A stretch of 64,000 nucleotides of DNA, taken from the NCBI RefSeq assembly GCF_017094485.1, contig NZ_CP064786.1, positions 2,170,001-2,234,000 of the forward strand, in the 5' to 3' direction. The translations under genes were made by a program, and so were the position numbers. Shown in pieces: positions 57,047 through 63,982 of this stretch (the first letter of the stretch is position 1; every line of letters begins with the position of its first letter). The notes under the pieces were generated by a model, which was given only the letters and a program-made list of their open reading frames with translations, did not search any database and was not told the DNA's origin. Source of the stretch: Natranaeroarchaeum sulfidigenes (lineage in GTDB: Archaea; Halobacteriota; Halobacteria; Halobacteriales; Natronoarchaeaceae).

Positions 57047-58240
57047 CTACCGGATTACGTCGAGACCGTTCTGCTTCTCGACCGTGTCCTTCCCGCCGTC
57101 GCTCTGTGCACCGAAGCTGCCTTTGCTTCCCGAGTCGTCGAGGTTCTGGCTAGCGTCAAAGGATGCTTCGTTCGCTCCCTGGAGACTCTCACGGGACTTG
57201 TTGGCCTGCTTTTGCGTCGTCGGACCAAGCACTTGCGCGCTCTGGACGCCGGTCATGATCGCCATCACGCGGACCTTGCCCTTGTACTCCTCCTGGATTC
57301 GGGCACCCCAGATGACGTTCGCACTGGCTTCCAGACGCTCGGTGATGTTGTCCGCGATCCCTTCGGCCTCCTTCAGTGTGAGGTCGGGCCCACCAGTAAT
57401 GTGAACCAGCCCGCCGCTCGCGCCGCGGTAGTCGACATCGAGCAGTGGATGGTTCATCGCGTCTTTGACGACCTCCTCCGTCTTGTTCTTGTCCTGCGTC
57501 TCGCCGACGAGCATCACTGCGACGCCACCCTGATTCATGATGGTCGTCATGTCGGCGTAGTCCAGGTTAATCAGGCTCGGCTGGGTGATCGTTTCCGAGA
57601 TCCCCTTGACGGTCTCGGCGATAATCTGGTCCATCACCGAAAACGCCTTTCCGATCGGGAGGTTCGGCACGTACTCCAGCAGACGGTTGTTGTCGAGCAC
57701 GATGATCGAGTCGGCCTCGTCGCGCAGTTTCTCTAGACCTTCTTCTGCCTTGACTGTCCGTGCGCGCTCGACGTTGAACGGCGTCGAGACCATTCCGACG
57801 ACGATCGCCCCCTGTTCTTTGGCGATCTTCGAGACGACAGGTGCCGCACCGGTCCCGGTTCCGCCACCCATCCCCGCGGTGACGAACACCAGATCTGCGT
57901 TACCCAGCACTTCCTTGACCGTTCCCTGAGCCATCTCGGTAGCTCGCTCGCCCATCGAGGGGTCTCCGCCAGCACCGAGCCCGCTGGTCAGGGACTTACC
58001 GACCAGAATTTTCGTGTCGGCCTCGATCATCTTGAGGTGCTGTTTATCGGTGTTGATCGCGATGGTCTCGGCACCCTCGACGCCGATGTTGTACAGTCGG
58101 TTGACGGTGTTATTACCAGCACCTCCAGCGCCGACGATCACGATCCGGGGATCGCCGAACTCGTCATCGTCTGCCGCAGCATCCATCTCCCGTTTCTCCT
58201 CTTCGGCGTTTTCAAGCGCATCCTGAACAATATCTTGCAT
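57047..58240 (-). CDS. ftsZ2: Cell division protein FtsZ2
   Basis: 397 residues. The GTP-binding tubulin signature [24 protein letters not shown] at the N-terminus, and NLDYADMT in the T7-like loop are clear. The N-terminal [16 protein letters not shown] and its place beside ncsA and cdrS identify FtsZ2, which drives ring constriction. The C-terminal tail is Gln/Ser/Asp-rich. It starts 2 bp after the cdrS stop, so both are on one transcript. Confidence 0.93.
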
Positions 58241-58242
58241 AG

Positions 58243-58419
58243 CTACACCTTCGCCCAGGTTCGTTTACTGGAGTTCTGGGAGGTCTCCTGTTGTTCGTCG
58301 ACCATCTCCCGGACAGCGGCCCGAATCGCCTCGCTACGATTCGGGTACTGGCCGGTGTCGACCATCTGTTCGACCGCGTCGATCTGCTGTTTCGGAATTC
58401 GCAGTGTCACACGCTCCAT
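58243..58419 (-). CDS. cdrS: CdrS, short ribbon-helix-helix regulator of division
   Basis: 58 residues from ATG 58419. The RHH core is [20 protein letters not shown], then [15 protein letters not shown]. Known haloarchaeal CdrS is a short RHH protein upstream of ftsZ2 that activates division genes. Here its stop is 2 bp before ftsZ2. A TATA-like element lies at about 58566-58580, and two dyads lie in the leader (58437-58478 and 58528-58545). Confidence 0.92.
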
Positions 58420-58436
58420 ATGTTGTATTCCCCTGT

Positions 58437-58545
58437 GTAAGACGGCCGCCCTTCGTGGATACCGATCATTTGTCTTACGCCCCTCGCCACCCGACAACGC
58501 CGGATGTGAGGGGTTCCACCCCTTCGTGTAAGACAACCGTCTTAC
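58437..58545. promoter_or_regulatory. GTAAGAC/GTCTTAC dyads in cdrS-ftsZ2 promoter
   Basis: At 58528-58545 GTAAGAC-AACC-GTCTTAC is a perfect 7-bp-arm dyad near the predicted transcription start. The same half-sites occur further in at 58437-58443 (GTAAGAC) and 58472-58478 (GTCTTAC). Two spaced copies fit binding by an RHH protein such as CdrL or CdrS. Confidence 0.6.
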
Positions 58546-58634
58546 GCGACTGGAACCTCACGGGCATACATAATAAATGTAACGGCGGTTGTGACACAAA
58601 GGAGTAAACGCCGTCTTCGGTAGTGTGTGACTCT

Positions 58635-59141
58635 CTACCGAGTATCTAGCACGTCTGCAGCCGGTGTCCGACGCCCACAGCCTGGGCAGAAGGCCCAGTC
58701 CGAACGGAGCTCGTCTCCACATTCACAGAACGAACGTTTGGACGCCTTTTCCCCACAGTTCGGACAGTAAACGTGATCGTCACTCACCGTATCGCCACAC
58801 TGTGTACACGTCCTGTCGTCACGCTCGACCGACACGTCTCCTGACGACACTGTCTGACGCTCGGCAGTCGCTCGCTCGTCCTCGATAGAGACGTTTACCG
58901 TGACGTCCTGTGGCATCGATCCCTGACCCAGCCGCTCGTCCAGCCGTCGGTCGATCAACTGATCGACGCGGTCGGCGACCAGCGCGTCCAGCGAGTCCGC
59001 ATCCTGTGTCGTCCCCTCCGCCGGCTCGTGTTCCTCGATGTAGCTCCGTAGTGCCTCGCGTAACACCTCGCTTTTCGAGGCGTCGAACGACTCGATCTCC
59101 TTGACGAGGTCGTCGTCCGCCCGGAACGTAATCTTACTCAT
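58635..59141 (-). CDS. cdrL: CdrL, RHH regulator with C-terminal zinc ribbons
   Basis: 168 residues from ATG 59141. The N-terminal RHH is MSKITFRADDDLVKEIESFDA, then SEVLREALRSYIEEH. A charged middle follows, then two zinc ribbons (CTQC-x9-CPNC and CECG-x9-CPGC). CdrL lies upstream of cdrS in haloarchaea and controls it. The 215-bp gap to cdrS carries the GTAAGAC dyads. Confidence 0.92.
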   Translation of the reverse strand: MSKITFRADDDLVKEIESFDASKSEVLREALRSYIEEHEPAEGTTQDADSLDALVADRVDQLIDRRLDERLGQGSMPQDVTVNVSIEDERATAERQTVSSGDVSVERDDRTCTQCGDTVSDDHVYCPNCGEKASKRSFCECGDELRSDWAFCPGCGRRTPAADVLDTR

Positions 59142-59286: not shown

Positions 59287-59360
59287 CCGCCCTTAGCTCA
59301 GACTGGTAGAGCAGTCGACTGTAGATCGACTTGTCCCCCGTTCAAATCGGGGAGGGCGGA
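59287..59360 (+). tRNA. tRNA-Tyr (GUA)
   Basis: The 7-bp acceptor stem CCGCCCT/AGGGCGG is complete with discriminator A. The D-arm, anticodon arm GTCGA-CTGTAGA-TCGAC with GTA at 59321-59323, and T-arm CCCCG-TTCAAAT-CGGGG are standard. CCA is not encoded and there is no intron. The TATA region (ATAATAACCCTTAAG) is near 59247-59262. The gene-poor region that begins after it may be an integrated element. Confidence 0.95.
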
Positions 59361-60504
59361 CTCGTTTTCGAGTCGAACCGGATTGACCGTACAGCGACGG
59401 TATTACCCTGTAAACCGCCCATATACGTCGAATGAGTCGAACGGGAATCCCGGTCAACTCTCCGCAGCGCGGGTTCGGTTCGGATATACTCGGGCCGAAT
59501 GGTTAAGATTTGTCACCGTCGTTACTACGCAGCGTGTGCTGGAGCCTCGGTCGTCAGACTCTGCTGTCCTCGTTACCTCGTAAGACCTCTCACAGGGGCG
59601 TCTCTCGCACCTTCGTCGCTCGGCGAGTAGTTTGGGTCCTATCGTGCCTCGCCTCTCTGCTGGCAAGCCCCAGCGACCGTCGCGGGACCTCAGACGTCGA
59701 TTACGAACTTGCCCGAATAGAACCCCCTCACTCAGTAGCCCGCTGTTGACAGTGTGATCGAAGTCTCAGTCGCCCACGCATGACCGTCCCCATCGGCGCT
59801 GTTGTCTGAACCCTCAGACGATTCCTTCCGAGTGGTTCTCTCGACTGTGGTATCCCAACCTCACCCGGAACTCCGTCTGAGGGTTCAGCGTGGGGCCCCG
59901 AGGTTCACCGATCAGTTTCATGCCAGTTGGTGACGGTGGTGCCTCCGATCCCGCCTCGCCAGAGACCCTACTCGTAACTCGTCTGCCTGAACCCTCAGCG
60001 AACTACCCCACATACCTCACCGATCTGGTCCGTCACTCTCCGGGGATCCCTCCTGATCTGTCGAGCGCAGAGTTCGGGGTTTCGGTGCCACCGGTGATAC
60101 CCTTCTCTCCCGTCACATCGATTCTCAACTCGTCTGGCCGGTCGTGGACGACTCTGCTCACACTCGAAGCGTTGGTAGATGGTATGGGCCTCGATCAACT
60201 CGATCTTCTGCTCGCGGGGACTGGAGAGGCCACTGTACCTTCAGCGTCGACCTCGGGGGAAGGGAGTCTGTGTCGTCGAGATGTCGACCTCGTCATTGTA
60301 ATCTCGTGGTCCGAGCTGGCCCTCCCCGCTCAGTCGTCCGTCAGCACCTCGCAACCGGCGCTGTCGCCCGACTCTGGGACCTTCAGTCGTCGATGAGTCC
60401 GAGGCGAAAGAGGGTGGACCCAAAACGTGGAATACCTCCTGTATGGACTCATAGAAGACGATTAGGAAAATCCTATGGACTTGGACAACGCACAATAATA
60501 CGAC
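59361..60504. other. Gene-poor stretch after tRNA-Tyr with palindromic repeats
   Basis: These 1,144 bases contain no frame with the acidic, G/C-ending codon use of neighbours. The longest (59890-60396) is Ser/Pro-rich and looks accidental. Three copies of the GTCTGA-N4-TCAGAC dyad family lie inside (59804, 59875, 59985). The stretch may be the left part of an integrated element or degraded coding DNA. Confidence 0.5.
59804..60000. repeat. Palindromic repeat cluster 1 (3 copies)
   Basis: Copies are at 59804-59819 (GTCTGA-ACCC-TCAGAC, perfect), 59875-59890 (loop GGGT, right arm TCAGCG) and 59985-60000 (GCCTGA-ACCC-TCAGCG). The second copy is the reverse orientation judged by the loop. Confidence 0.8.
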
Positions 60505-61209
60505 TCATGCTGTCGTAAGACGTCTAATCCCTCTGATTCCGTACACTATGACCAAGGCCAAAACAAATACAAAAACCACCATCACAAGTCCGGCGCTTGC
60601 GGACATGGTTGGGTCGTTGGCAGTTTCCATTATAGACACGGCCACCGCTAAAAGAAGTAGGAGGGTGTACGCCAAACCGATTAAGAAGAACGGACGACTC
60701 CATATTCTGTCCGGGGGTCCTTCTTCCCAATCGTCTCGGTGCCACGATAGGTCTACACCAGTTTTGTCATGAATCAGAGGAACAACACGGCGTCGTACCC
60801 GGGGGATAACGAGCACCCCTGCCAACATAAAAAAGAAGACCTCTCCCGTCCTCGGAACTTGAACCATGCCTGCCCAAATCAACATGATAGCAGTGAAAAT
60901 CGAAAATATCGGAAACGCTGGGTCCCATCTGCTGTCGTCTGTGCCATCTGCTGCCTCCCTTTGGTCTTTGTTCGTTATGTCCTCAGTGACTTCATCCATT
61001 TTGTTGGTATCATGATCACTCTTCTTGACCTCTTCAATATCCGATTGGATTTCATACCCACACTCCGAACAGAAATTGGGGTCCTGCTCTATTCTGACAC
61101 CGCAATTTGGACATGAATAGTCTGCTAAATTAGTTCCGCACTCGGGGCAATATTTTGCGTCTTTGGCAACTTTCGTTTTACATTTGAGACATTCTTGATT
61201 GGTTACCAT
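60505..61209 (-). CDS. AT-rich zinc-ribbon membrane protein
   Basis: I start at ATG 61209 (MVTNQECLKCKTKVAKDAKYCPECG), 234 residues. Two zinc ribbons occupy residues about 7-52 (CLKC/CPEC, CPNC/CSEC). After a hydrophilic middle there are two pairs of membrane spans (about 95-135 and 175-230). Codon use is clearly AT-richer than in the rest of the window, a sign of transfer. It is flanked by palindromic repeats on both sides. Function unknown. Confidence 0.75.
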   Translation of the reverse strand: MVTNQECLKCKTKVAKDAKYCPECGTNLADYSCPNCGVRIEQDPNFCSECGYEIQSDIEEVKKSDHDTNKMDEVTEDITNKDQREAADGTDDSRWDPAFPIFSIFTAIMLIWAGMVQVPRTGEVFFFMLAGVLVIPRVRRRVVPLIHDKTGVDLSWHRDDWEEGPPDRIWSRPFFLIGLAYTLLLLLAVAVSIMETANDPTMSASAGLVMVVFVFVLALVIVYGIRGIRRLTTA

Positions 61210-61334
61210 GTACAAACCATCTAGCCCATTATCCTTGATATTTATCCCCCTCCAGAGTTTCACGAGGCGGCCCCGCTCTCTGCGGAAAGGTCTCTTGTGA
61301 GCCCGGTTCACCGTCTCGCGTTTCGGTTCGTCCC

Positions 61335-61652
61335 GTCTGAACCCTCAGCCACTCGTCTCGTCGCACCCGTTCCCATCTCTCTGACTCGCTGGGAGGGGTC
61401 AGACGACGTTTGCTCCGTCGTTTGTCGGGGTCCACTCCCACTCCCGGTCCTTGCGGGATCGGGGTCGTGGTTCGCCCTGTCTCGACGGGTCGAAGCCCCT
61501 CCGTCTGAAGGCTCAGACGGTGAAGTACCCTGTCGTGGGTTTCTTATCTAATAAATACTCACGTCGGGTTCATCTGAACCCTCAGACGGACTCGCGGCCT
61601 CGGATGCACTGGCAACCTCGTCGACAGGGTGGTGTCGTCTGAACCTTCAGAC
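61335..61652. repeat. Palindromic repeat cluster 2 (4 copies)
   Basis: Copies: 61335-61350 (loop ACCC, right arm TCAGCC), 61503-61518 (loop AGGC, extended to CCGTCTGA/TCAGACGG), 61572-61587 (ATCTGA-ACCC-TCAGAC) and 61637-61652 (GTCTGA-ACCT-TCAGAC). The last three are 69 and 65 bp apart. Confidence 0.82.
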
Positions 61653-62077
61653 AGCTCTTCGTACTGTTAGTACCGATCTGTTTTCCCTTCATAATCCCTT
61701 TAGTACAGCTACCGTTCTACTACCGACCTACTCCACCTCACCCCCCTCGACCGCGACCGAACAGAACGTTGGCGGCGCTGACGCGCCTTGACCGCCCCGC
61801 ACCGCACGGGAAGACGGAGACGTCCCTTTGGGGGGAGGGTTCGTCCCAAAAGCCCATTACTTCGGACCTACCTAAGGAAGTGTGAGGGGCCTGACTTCCT
61901 CACCTTCCACCTTCCGACGTAGAGGGGCTTTCGTTTCCTGCACTGGGTTTCTCGACCAGACCGGAGTCGTTCCGGATTTACCGATGTCCTGTTCGTATAG
62001 CGGCCTTCAGGGGGTTCGGCTTCGCGTACTCGTCAACGAGTGTTACTAAGACCTCGGGGGCCATAAGAGTGTCGAAC
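61653..62077. other. Non-coding, possibly structured stretch
   Basis: No gene is seen. GGCGC-TGAC-GCGCC at 61774-61787 is a hairpin. A longer imperfect hairpin (GGAAGTGTGAGG paired with CCTCACCTTCC) spans about 61876-61909. TTTAGTACAG near 61700 could be a TATA box. On the minus strand the block might be a decayed transposon end or an RNA gene; neither is shown. Confidence 0.4.
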
Positions 62078-62334
62078 GTCTGATGGTTCAGACAAGTAGT
62101 CGCCATACTGAAACAGCTGGGTGGGGAATCCGTCTGAAGGTTCAGACAACCATAATCGCCCTACTGGTGCCCTCTATGCCAGTATCTAATATCACTTCGT
62201 TTGTCTGATCCCTCAGACACTGACTTACGAAAATTAGTATCTCATATATTACTGTATTCTGCCTGAGGGTTCAGACATCTCACTCGATTCTGAACTACGA
62301 GTAGATAGGTGGTCAACCGTCTGACCCCTCAGAC
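62078..62334. repeat. Palindromic repeat cluster 3 (5 copies) with AT-rich core
   Basis: Copies: 62078-62093 (loop TGGT), 62132-62147 (AGGT), 62203-62218 (TCCC), 62261-62276 (GCCTGA-GGGT-TCAGAC) and 62319-62334 (CCCC). Start-to-start distances are 54, 71, 58 and 58 bp. Between the third and fourth lies an AT-rich stretch (about 62229-62258, AAAATTAGTATCTCATATATTACTG core). The layout resembles iterons with an unwinding element. Confidence 0.82.
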
Positions 62335-62578
62335 AGCGGTGTACCTCTGTCTGTACTCCAGCGAGTATCAAGTAATCATCTCGCACTCCAGCCGCTTGGT
62401 GTCCGGCCCGCGGCGCGAGAGATTCCGGGGTCCGGTGCGAGATCGTCGAGAGGGTCCGCTACGGGCCTCGTGGAGGCGTCCACAGGAACTCCTTCGCTCG
62501 ACGAAAGGGATACATCGTCGAGCAGTCCGAGAGCCAGCAAAGTGGCGTGGCGCGGGTGCTCACCCCCCACGAGCGATC
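62335..62578. other. Intergenic stretch before small partner gene of integrase
   Basis: 244 bases between the last clustered repeat and the stop of the gene at 62579. Weak frames exist on both strands (62309-62611 plus, 62376-62570 minus), but neither has recognisable content. I see nothing further in it. Confidence 0.4.
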
Positions 62579-62956
62579 CTACACCTCGTCGGTCTCCGGC
62601 GACACGCCTGAGGGTTCAGCCGCCCGGACGTGCTCGATCTCCTCGATAGTCAGCCGGATCTCGCCGATGGCCGTACCATCTGGCCCGAGTACGGAGATGT
62701 CGAACGTTGGGGGATCACCGAGGGGAACAGCGGCTGGCCGAACCTTGTCAATGTCCTCGGCGATCCAGAAGCCCTCAGGGCTATCGTCGGGCTCGGCGAG
62801 TACACTGAAGACAGCGTCGTCGAATCGATCAGCGAACTCTGTCAGCTCGCGCCACGAGTCTGGCTCGATCTCGGGCTTTGCCTCATCGTCAGCGGATCCT
62901 CTGACCCCCGAGAGATCGGTCACTGAGGCGTCCCGTGAGTACTCAGTGCGATCCAT
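62579..62956 (-). CDS. Small acidic protein downstream of integrase
   Basis: 125 residues starting 3 bp after the integrase stop, so made from the same transcript. It is strongly acidic with charged helices and a late beta region (TFDISVLGPDGTAIGEIRLTIEEIEHVRAA). I do not recognise the family. A partner or direction factor for the recombinase is only a guess. One copy of the palindromic repeat (62606-62621) lies inside its C-terminal codons. Confidence 0.7.
   Translation of the reverse strand: MDRTEYSRDASVTDLSGVRGSADDEAKPEIEPDSWRELTEFADRFDDAVFSVLAEPDDSPEGFWIAEDIDKVRPAAVPLGDPPTFDISVLGPDGTAIGEIRLTIEEIEHVRAAEPSGVSPETDEV
62606..62621. repeat. Palindromic repeat, isolated copy inside a gene
   Basis: GCCTGA-GGGT-TCAGCC, the only copy within a predicted gene, in the last codons of the gene at 62579-62956. 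Confidence 0.7.
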
Positions 62957-62959
62957 GGG

Positions 62960-63982
62960 TTATACCCCTTCGAGGTACTCTCGCCGCTGCTCGACCTTGA
63001 CCTCCTCGGAGCGCTTATCGTAATGCTTGTCGAGGACCTCCTGACCGACATTCATCCGGTCGGAGACGACCTTCTCGGGGACGTCTTCAGAGAGGTGGTG
63101 TGTGATCGATCCCCGGCGAACCGAGTGCGGGCTCACGCTCGACGGACACCGGCTGTAAGAGCCGTAATCCACGCCTTCACACCCGTCGGGATCACGGTCA
63201 TGTGGACAGTCGTAGCCGTAGTAGCACGGCCTCGTGGCCTTGTAGACCGTCTCGCGGACCGTCGTTCCCGATAGCCGACCGTGCTGAGTCGTCAGCAGCG
63301 GCTCACGACCGTTTTCGTCGGTCATCTCCGGACGCTGACGGTCGATCCAGTCGTCCAACACTTCGCAAACGTAGGGATCGAGAGCGACCAGCCGCTCACC
63401 TTCGCTCCCGTTCTTTAGACCCGTGTCGGTCTCGGGACGATGACGGAGTTCGAGGCGTTTCTCTTCGGGATCGTAATCGTCGAGATCGAGAGCCACGATC
63501 GATCCCAGTCGGATCCCAGTATGCCAGAGCAGTTCAAGGACGACGTGGGTCCGGGAGGCGTACTCGAACCGGCGGAGGTACTCCAGCACGTTCTCGGCCT
63601 GCTCCGACCGGAGGATCTCTTCCCGCTGCTCGTCGTCGTTCGAGAGCGTTGGGAGCAGGATCTTCTCGTGGAGGCCGCTCGGGACGGCGTCGATGGTCTC
63701 ACAGAACCGTATGAATACCCGAAGGGTCTCTAACTGGGTGCGAAGGGATACGGCGTTTAGATCTCCATCCTCCTTCCGCCAGAGCCGATACTCGTGGAGC
63801 TTCCGACCCGAGAGGTCGTTCATGTCGTCGATGTCCTCTTCGTCACACCAACGGATGAAGTGGACGAGTCGATAGTGATGGGCCTGAAGCGTTCGTTCCG
63901 TCACTTCCCCTTCGCGCTCCCGGTGATACATTTCCTTTGCCGTCTCTGGATCGAGCGGTTCGAGTTCTTGGTTTCCAGTCAT
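62960..63982 (-). CDS. Tyrosine recombinase / integrase
   Basis: 340 residues. An N-terminal SAM-like DNA-binding domain covers residues about 10-105. The catalytic domain has Arg158 (HTGIRLGS), His286 and Arg289 (SPHSVRRGS) and Tyr321 (KHYDKRS). A cysteine-rich insertion (CYYGYDCPHD, then CEG and RCPSS) lies before the HxxR box. It should integrate or excise the element that carries it. The bases after the start are at the window edge, so attachment sites are not resolved. Confidence 0.9.
   Translation of the reverse strand: MTGNQELEPLDPETAKEMYHREREGEVTERTLQAHHYRLVHFIRWCDEEDIDDMNDLSGRKLHEYRLWRKEDGDLNAVSLRTQLETLRVFIRFCETIDAVPSGLHEKILLPTLSNDDEQREEILRSEQAENVLEYLRRFEYASRTHVVLELLWHTGIRLGSIVALDLDDYDPEEKRLELRHRPETDTGLKNGSEGERLVALDPYVCEVLDDWIDRQRPEMTDENGREPLLTTQHGRLSGTTVRETVYKATRPCYYGYDCPHDRDPDGCEGVDYGSYSRCPSSVSPHSVRRGSITHHLSEDVPEKVVSDRMNVGQEVLDKHYDKRSEEVKVEQRREYLEGV

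Follow-up and report, generated by a model that had tools for sequence, protein, structure and literature searches.

A palindrome-rich integrated element in Natranaeroarchaeum sulfidigenes, a candidate satellite of haloarchaeal tailed viruses

Satellites of tailed phages shape bacterial immunity and gene transfer, and among the archaea satellite plasmids of fuselloviruses are known, with pSSVx as an example. Bacterial phage-inducible chromosomal islands (PICIs) employ either a small terminase subunit (TerS) of their own or the pac or cos site of their helper (PMC6092414). For archaea, a review of 2024 cites the fusellovirus satellites (PMC11389934), and a 2021 survey of archaeal tailed viruses, in which the words satellite and palindrome are absent, found no proviruses of the Druskaviridae (PMC8651126). 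The open literature searched yielded no account of a PICI-like satellite of an archaeal tailed virus, although absence there is not proof. Here we present a 4,774-bp island with thirteen copies of a 16-bp palindrome, located in a stretch of 64,000 nucleotides of Natranaeroarchaeum sulfidigenes (contig NZ_CP064786.1, positions 2,170,001 to 2,234,000; hereafter the window, whose numbering is used throughout). With a probability of about one half, the island is a reduced PICI-like satellite, and its 13 palindromes are copies of a recognition site of a lineage of haloarchaeal tailed viruses.

The thirteen palindromes counted in the initial annotation are all present (starts in the feature lines below), and the core CTGA-N4-TCAG, which it had called invariant, is indeed fixed in every copy. 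With up to three mismatches permitted at any position, 0 of 104 inner arm positions (eight per copy) are changed as compared with 10 of 52 outer ones (four per copy; Fisher P = 9e-6); the copies vary solely in the centre and in the two outermost bases of each arm. The core occurs 14 times in the window against 0.93 expected, a number reached by 0 of 100 shuffles; the fourteenth, at 63284 within the integrase gene (CTGAGTCGTCAG), does not match the rest of the family consensus. The centres had been described as free, which does not hold: all 13 copies have CC or GG as their two middle bases (P about 3e-11), and the site is therefore GTCTGA-[A]CC[C/T]-TCAGAC in either orientation.

The even genome-wide spread against which the family was to be checked was not found, as 13 of the 21 CTGANCCNTCAG sites in the 3.04-Mb single-contig genome fall within the 4.8-kb island (binomial P = 7e-32). 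The strict form GTCTGANNNNTCAGAC occurs eight times in the genome, seven of these in the island (reversed control: 0); two further copies, strict or near-strict (1798142, 2285671), are in or beside ordinary host genes and look like background. A genome-wide dispersed repeat of the miniature inverted-repeat transposable element (MITE) or repetitive extragenic palindromic (REP) type is ruled out by the concentration of the 13 loose sites in 4.8 kb of 3.04 Mb, and a CRISPR-type array by the uneven spacing and the inverted units. The suggestion that the copies might be explained by one larger known transposon was right insofar as they belong to one integrated element, which is, however, no known transposon. 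Literature searched for the core motif yielded no relevant exact match.

The palindrome recurs in uncultured haloarchaeal tailed viruses, for which IMG/VR was scanned for paired sites and for the exact 16-mer. Contig L052 carries 18 palindromes in 12.9 kb and the contig of L047 14 in 18.6 kb (reversed controls 0 and 0), and the contig of L062 and L069 carries 32 in 30.2 kb (reversed control 1), that is about one per kb, against a chance expectation of about 0.2 to 0.3 sites per virus stretch. L052 and L062 encode a terminase large subunit (TerL) plus other tailed-virus genes. The TerL of L052 is 54% identical to that of HVTV-1; the contigs are fragments of candidate Druskaviridae. The palindrome is absent from HVTV-1 (102 kb), and the other TerL relatives checked have zero or one each. 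In 16.8 kb of L145 (L295; IMGVR_UViG_3300046050_000048), a more distant relative (TerL 64%), 6 sites were counted, most of them with a centre other than CC/GG (CG, AGG, CCT). The window genome has two CRISPR arrays with 84 and 19 repeats found, near cas1 (G000:C1:2736000-2755000, L289), and 101 host spacers gave no convincing match to the palindrome-bearing viruses.

Virus copies mark the beginnings and ends of genes and the spaces between them; others lie within genes, where they stand mostly in frame and encode SEGSD or (A/T/S)EPSD (L052, L047, L062, L069). As acidic linkers these are in keeping with haloarchaeal proteins. No copy was found in the presumed portal and major capsid genes. Three of the five sites alignable between L052 and L062 are retained, among them the one that lies in both on the start codon of a gene for a TerS-like protein, and a long noncoding stretch between this gene and terL in L052 holds several copies. 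Copies within genes that read as such linkers (SEGSD or (A/T)EPSD) and avoid the portal and capsid genes might also come from a repeat of this virus lineage that spreads itself or is neutral, much as dispersed palindromic elements are found inserted into genes of bacteria; it would have been acquired with viral DNA and have no role for the element. The confinement to one lineage and the fact that some copies are not common to related viruses agree with it. This explanation is nevertheless unlikely, as decaying repeats should drift evenly, whereas here the inner eight bases are invariant while the outer ones drift; the CC/GG centre is constant, positions are common to relatives at 72-79% identity, and no enzyme able to spread the repeat was identified.

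In the window the palindromes belong to one integrated element with its own integrase. The 3' end of the tRNA-Tyr gene is repeated 4,774 bp downstream, and in a genome of the same genus (G046) both flanks are contiguous (flank identity 90% and 96%) and form an empty site, so that the island represents 4,774 bp inserted into the tRNA-Tyr gene. Its features, with those shared with a second element in genome G075 (described below), are:

59287-59361, forward strand: tRNA-Tyr (GTA) gene, the integration target (ARAGORN; Rfam tRNA)
59339-59362, forward strand: attL core, the tRNA-Tyr 3' end (direct repeat; empty site in G046)
59804-60000, no strand: left-end palindromes 59804, 59875 and 59985, the last two at positions matching the G075 element
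59871-60001, no strand: noncoding block common to the G075 element (78%), containing two palindromes
60119-60352, no strand: noncoding block common to the G075 element (81% over 235 bp; partner G075 94454-94685)
60505-61209, reverse strand: double zinc-ribbon protein with a hydrophobic C-terminal part (Pfam; composition)
61335-61350, no strand: palindrome on the stop codon of the TerS-like remnant
61345-61384, reverse strand: 3' remnant of a TerS-like gene, RDGNGCDETSG-stop (alignment; G075 has REIDNGCDEQSG-stop)
61503-62334, no strand: eight palindromes (61503, 61572, 61637, 62078, 62132, 62203, 62261, 62319)
62376-62557, no strand: noncoding block common to the G075 element (75%)
62579-62956, reverse strand: 125-aa protein, family unknown, with palindrome 62606 at its 3' end
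62960-63982, reverse strand: tyrosine recombinase (integrase; Pfam PF00589, PF02899)
64113-64136, just past the window end (L042 8114-8137): attR core, matching the attL core

That all copies but one lie outside genes is true of intact genes (62606 being in the 125-aa gene) but not of 61335, which lies on the stop codon of the remnant. The block at 60119-60352 has no reading frame common with G075 and is possibly an origin of replication, an RNA, or a cis-acting or packaging region; the zinc-ribbon gene (60505-61209; local G+C about 0.45-0.50) is probably cargo. The island DNA has no similarity to plasmid and phage records, and Rfam found nothing in the island region beyond the tRNA. Relatives of the integrase are present in 335 of 392 genomes of the order, and the 125-aa protein in two of them; within the family of G075 it occurs solely in G075, and it has no match in the viral contigs searched. 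Regions with related integrases at tRNA genes (L287 and L290 in G023, L291 in G097) lack palindromes, and as the L287 and L291 elements lie at tRNA-Tyr as well, the integrase family is not the explanation of the repeats. Arm-type sites of the integrase and dif-like sites are ruled out because the copies lie kilobases from att and all through the virus contigs.

The second element is found in G075, a genome of another family, where it spans 14.1 kb (93178-107299) between 49-bp repeats at tRNA-Arg. The integrase and the 125-aa protein of the window both have homologues in it (65% and 61%), and three of its palindromes stand at positions that match the island, including the counterparts of 59875 and 59985. 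Six of the 11 CTGANCCNTCAG sites in the G075 genome lie inside the element (P = 4e-12). Further genes encode a Prim-Pol domain protein, a type I restriction-modification system and a PadR/ArsR-type regulator, which has palindromes in its divergent intergenic region and at its 3' end. Open reading frames and family searches revealed no terminase large subunit, portal or capsid genes in either element, by which a provirus of a tailed virus is ruled out for both. At the level of sequence, kinship and integration are established by the empty site, by the presence of the same palindrome in the viruses and in two homologous elements, by proteins common to the viruses and the G075 element, and by the TerS-like remnant in the window. 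Other haloarchaea had been suggested as a place to look for the family, and the palindrome is indeed shared by the virus contigs and the G075 element; a strict-palindrome scan of the 392 genomes, which degenerate clusters would escape, missed G075, so that further elements are not excluded by it.

A protein of 49-50 aa is common to a virus (L052 524-673, reverse strand) and the G075 element (G075:C1:93569-93718, reverse strand; 67%), with weak matches also downstream of terL in L146 and L148; it is possibly head-related.

Density and gene content together allow the idea of a signal for protection or processing along the whole genome (Chi-like, modification or recombination), by which viral and element DNA would be shielded from nucleases. 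It would suit the spacing of about one per kb throughout the virus contigs and the type I restriction-modification system of the G075 element. The idea appears very unlikely: neither an enzyme nor a partner to match it was found, modification genes are lacking in the window island, a type I target sequence is not readable from hsdS here, and both orientations occur, unlike in Chi.

Also encoded in the G075 element is a 217-aa helix-turn-helix (HTH) protein, which shares 55% identity with a protein of the palindrome-bearing viruses whose gene lies upstream of terL; in HVTV-1 the gene of its homologue, gp108 (33%), stands two genes before terL. Its HTH is N-terminal, and it has weak matches to small-terminase families of PHROG. 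Its predicted model, of low confidence, comprises an HTH, a long helix, a strand pair and a helix, and a fold search with it gave weak matches only, among them 2ao9, which is listed as a small terminase (PMC4737164). Gene position, sequence and model are suggestive of a small terminase without proving it. Among the 392 genomes it occurs in G075 only; none was found in the plasmids searched, and viral contigs searched with the single G075 sequence gave no match, a query of this kind finding close relatives only.

The recognition helix of this protein reads RQV(Y/S)RY in four palindrome-bearing genomes and RSTIEDY, VSTVSEY or EDTVKDY in relatives without palindromes, a pattern consistent with the TerS-like protein reading the palindrome. 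In L145 the helix differs by one residue (RQVSRY) alongside the altered site centres, and it is possible that site and protein change together there.

In the window island the reverse strand at 61384-61345 matches the C-terminus of the G075 protein, as part of a larger block (61248-61384) that shares about 78-80% identity with G075. Nothing else of the TerS-like gene is left and the primase gene is absent; the eight-palindrome stretch, about 1 kb of noncoding DNA, occupies their place. Since a remnant is left and the missing genes are replaced by this stretch, the window element most likely descends by reduction from a TerS-encoding ancestor.

Two readings of the palindrome had been offered at the outset, a protein dimer site with a fixed 4-bp gap and selection for a hairpin, and the former is favoured. 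Sites in the viruses and in the G075 element have a mismatch pattern similar to that of the island copies. In 76 sites from elements and viruses, 4 and 3 changes of the outer pairs are compensated, compared with 5.6 and 2.6 by shuffling, while the inner arm pairs are invariant, hence uninformative on compensation. The outer positions are altered one-sidedly and the changes are uncompensated, therefore selection for a hairpin is unsupported. Invariant inner arms and uncompensated outer bases, with half-sites 10 bp apart and a CC/GG centre retained in both orientations, agree better with a putative site that a protein recognises in double-stranded DNA than with a hairpin.

A classical HTH dimer would suit this geometry too, and the chief alternative to packaging is a dimeric regulator whose operators are dispersed. 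In that case the palindromes would be operators of a virus-encoded regulator, stoperator-like or controlling gene starts, by which the elements would respond to a helper or titrate its regulator. Many virus copies at gene starts, at gene ends or between genes, start-codon sites conserved between viruses, and the palindromes around the PadR/ArsR-type regulator gene of the G075 element agree with this, and precedents are the dispersed repressor sites of mycobacteriophages (PMC9283540) and the start-associated repeats of cluster K phages (PMC3203893). We nevertheless regard operators as doubtful: no cognate regulator common to viruses and elements was found, the window island lacks an intact regulator gene, many copies lie deep within genes, the dense array of the window is not beside promoters of intact genes, and the sites are present in both orientations.

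Under the satellite reading, both elements would excise when a helper virus infects, and a helper protein binding the palindrome would handle the excised DNA like that of the virus, in the simplest case by packaging it; the elements would be mistaken for viral DNA because they display the recognition sites of the helper. The G075 element would use its own version of the viral TerS-like protein, whereas the window island, with its TerS-like gene lost, would rely on the protein of the helper and on a dense array of sites. The two would then represent two states of a PICI, one with its own TerS and one with the site of the helper. We infer here the dependence on a helper, the identity of the binding protein and a purpose in packaging rather than regulation.

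Measured against the features of PICIs, both elements have an attachment site and an integrase of their own, at tRNA-Tyr in the window and at tRNA-Arg in G075. Virion structural genes are lacking, one 49-aa protein, possibly head-related, being common with the viruses. A TerS-like gene is present in G075 and a remnant of it in the window, with the palindromes as candidate packaging sites, and a primase (Prim-Pol) is encoded by the G075 element and not by the window island.

Several points weigh against this reading. Two elements are known in all, both from sequence data; the window island, without intact TerS or primase, may be dead. The 101 host spacers do not match the viruses. The assignment to TerS draws on gene position, the HTH and weak family and fold matches, and the correlation of the recognition helix with the palindrome could reflect relatedness alone. 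In known TerS proteins the HTHs form a ring, and the SF6 domain shows no sequence preference in its binding (PMC4737164). A density of one per kb, with sites within genes as well, is unusual for a packaging signal.

More tentative, with the odds somewhat against it, is the wider proposal that Haloarchaea host PICI-like satellites of tailed viruses and that virus and satellite share a palindromic self-mark scattered over their DNA. A TerS-type protein would read this mark and so choose the DNA to be packaged, and the window element would be a minimal form with a dense array of marks.

Behind the island stand three copies of the tRNA-Tyr 3' end at L042 8114, 8249 and 8375 (window numbering 64113, 64248 and 64374), two of them preceded by tRNA pieces split by an insert of about 60 bp of the GAGCGAAGCGAAC type. 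The homologous region is present in the empty site of G046, which suggests that this array is older than the island and that integration at tRNA-Tyr has recurred. Directly beside the island (window 57047-59141) lies an FtsZ gene, followed by genes for a short protein of the ribbon-helix-helix (RHH) type and for an RHH-like one that has zinc ribbons; the latter has a weak CdrL_M match, and the locus resembles haloarchaeal cdrS-ftsZ2/cdrL.

Element and virus lineage form a concrete, testable candidate pair with a short and easily assayed recognition sequence, and the palindrome is usable as a sequence tag for related viruses and elements in metagenomes. The question is raised why a virus genome should be marked about once per kilobase, coding genes included.

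Among described systems, the closest cultured relatives of the palindrome viruses are those of the HVTV-1/HCTV-5 group (Druskaviridae; TerL 54%, TerS-like protein 33%), from which they differ by the palindromes that HVTV-1 lacks. The mycobacteriophage stoperators and start-associated sequences (PMC9283540, PMC3203893) are likewise short dispersed repeats, often at gene boundaries and nearly absent from the host; here too the sites are dispersed and found at gene boundaries, but stoperators and start-associated sequences are asymmetric, whereas the palindrome occurs in both orientations, also within genes and on integrated elements.

Fusellovirus satellites are, like the island, archaeal elements spread by a virus, a dependence inferred for the island; they differ in the spindle-shaped virus, the thermophilic host and the lack of a terminase or an integrated palindrome array. 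The phage-inducible chromosomal minimalist islands (PICMIs) of marine vibrios resemble the window element in their small size (about 6 kb), an integrase, few genes and no recognised packaging genes, and are thought to depend fully on helper particles; PICMIs have alpA and a primase and integrate next to fis, and the parts of the source consulted report no shared repeated motif (PMC10803314).

With the PICIs and the Staphylococcus aureus pathogenicity islands (SaPIs; PMC6092414) the elements share site-specific integration by their own integrase, the lack of virion genes, a primase of their own (G075), a TerS-like homologue or putative recognition sites of the helper, and accessory or defence genes (G075). 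They depart from them in the archaeal host and haloarchaeal tailed virus, in dispersed palindromes rather than one pac or cos site, in the lack of a recognised stl or alpA regulator and, for the window element, in a size of just 4.8 kb. The shared palindrome and two virus proteins encoded by the sister element, one of them a likely DNA-packaging protein, suggest an element parasitic on viruses, such as is familiar from bacteria.

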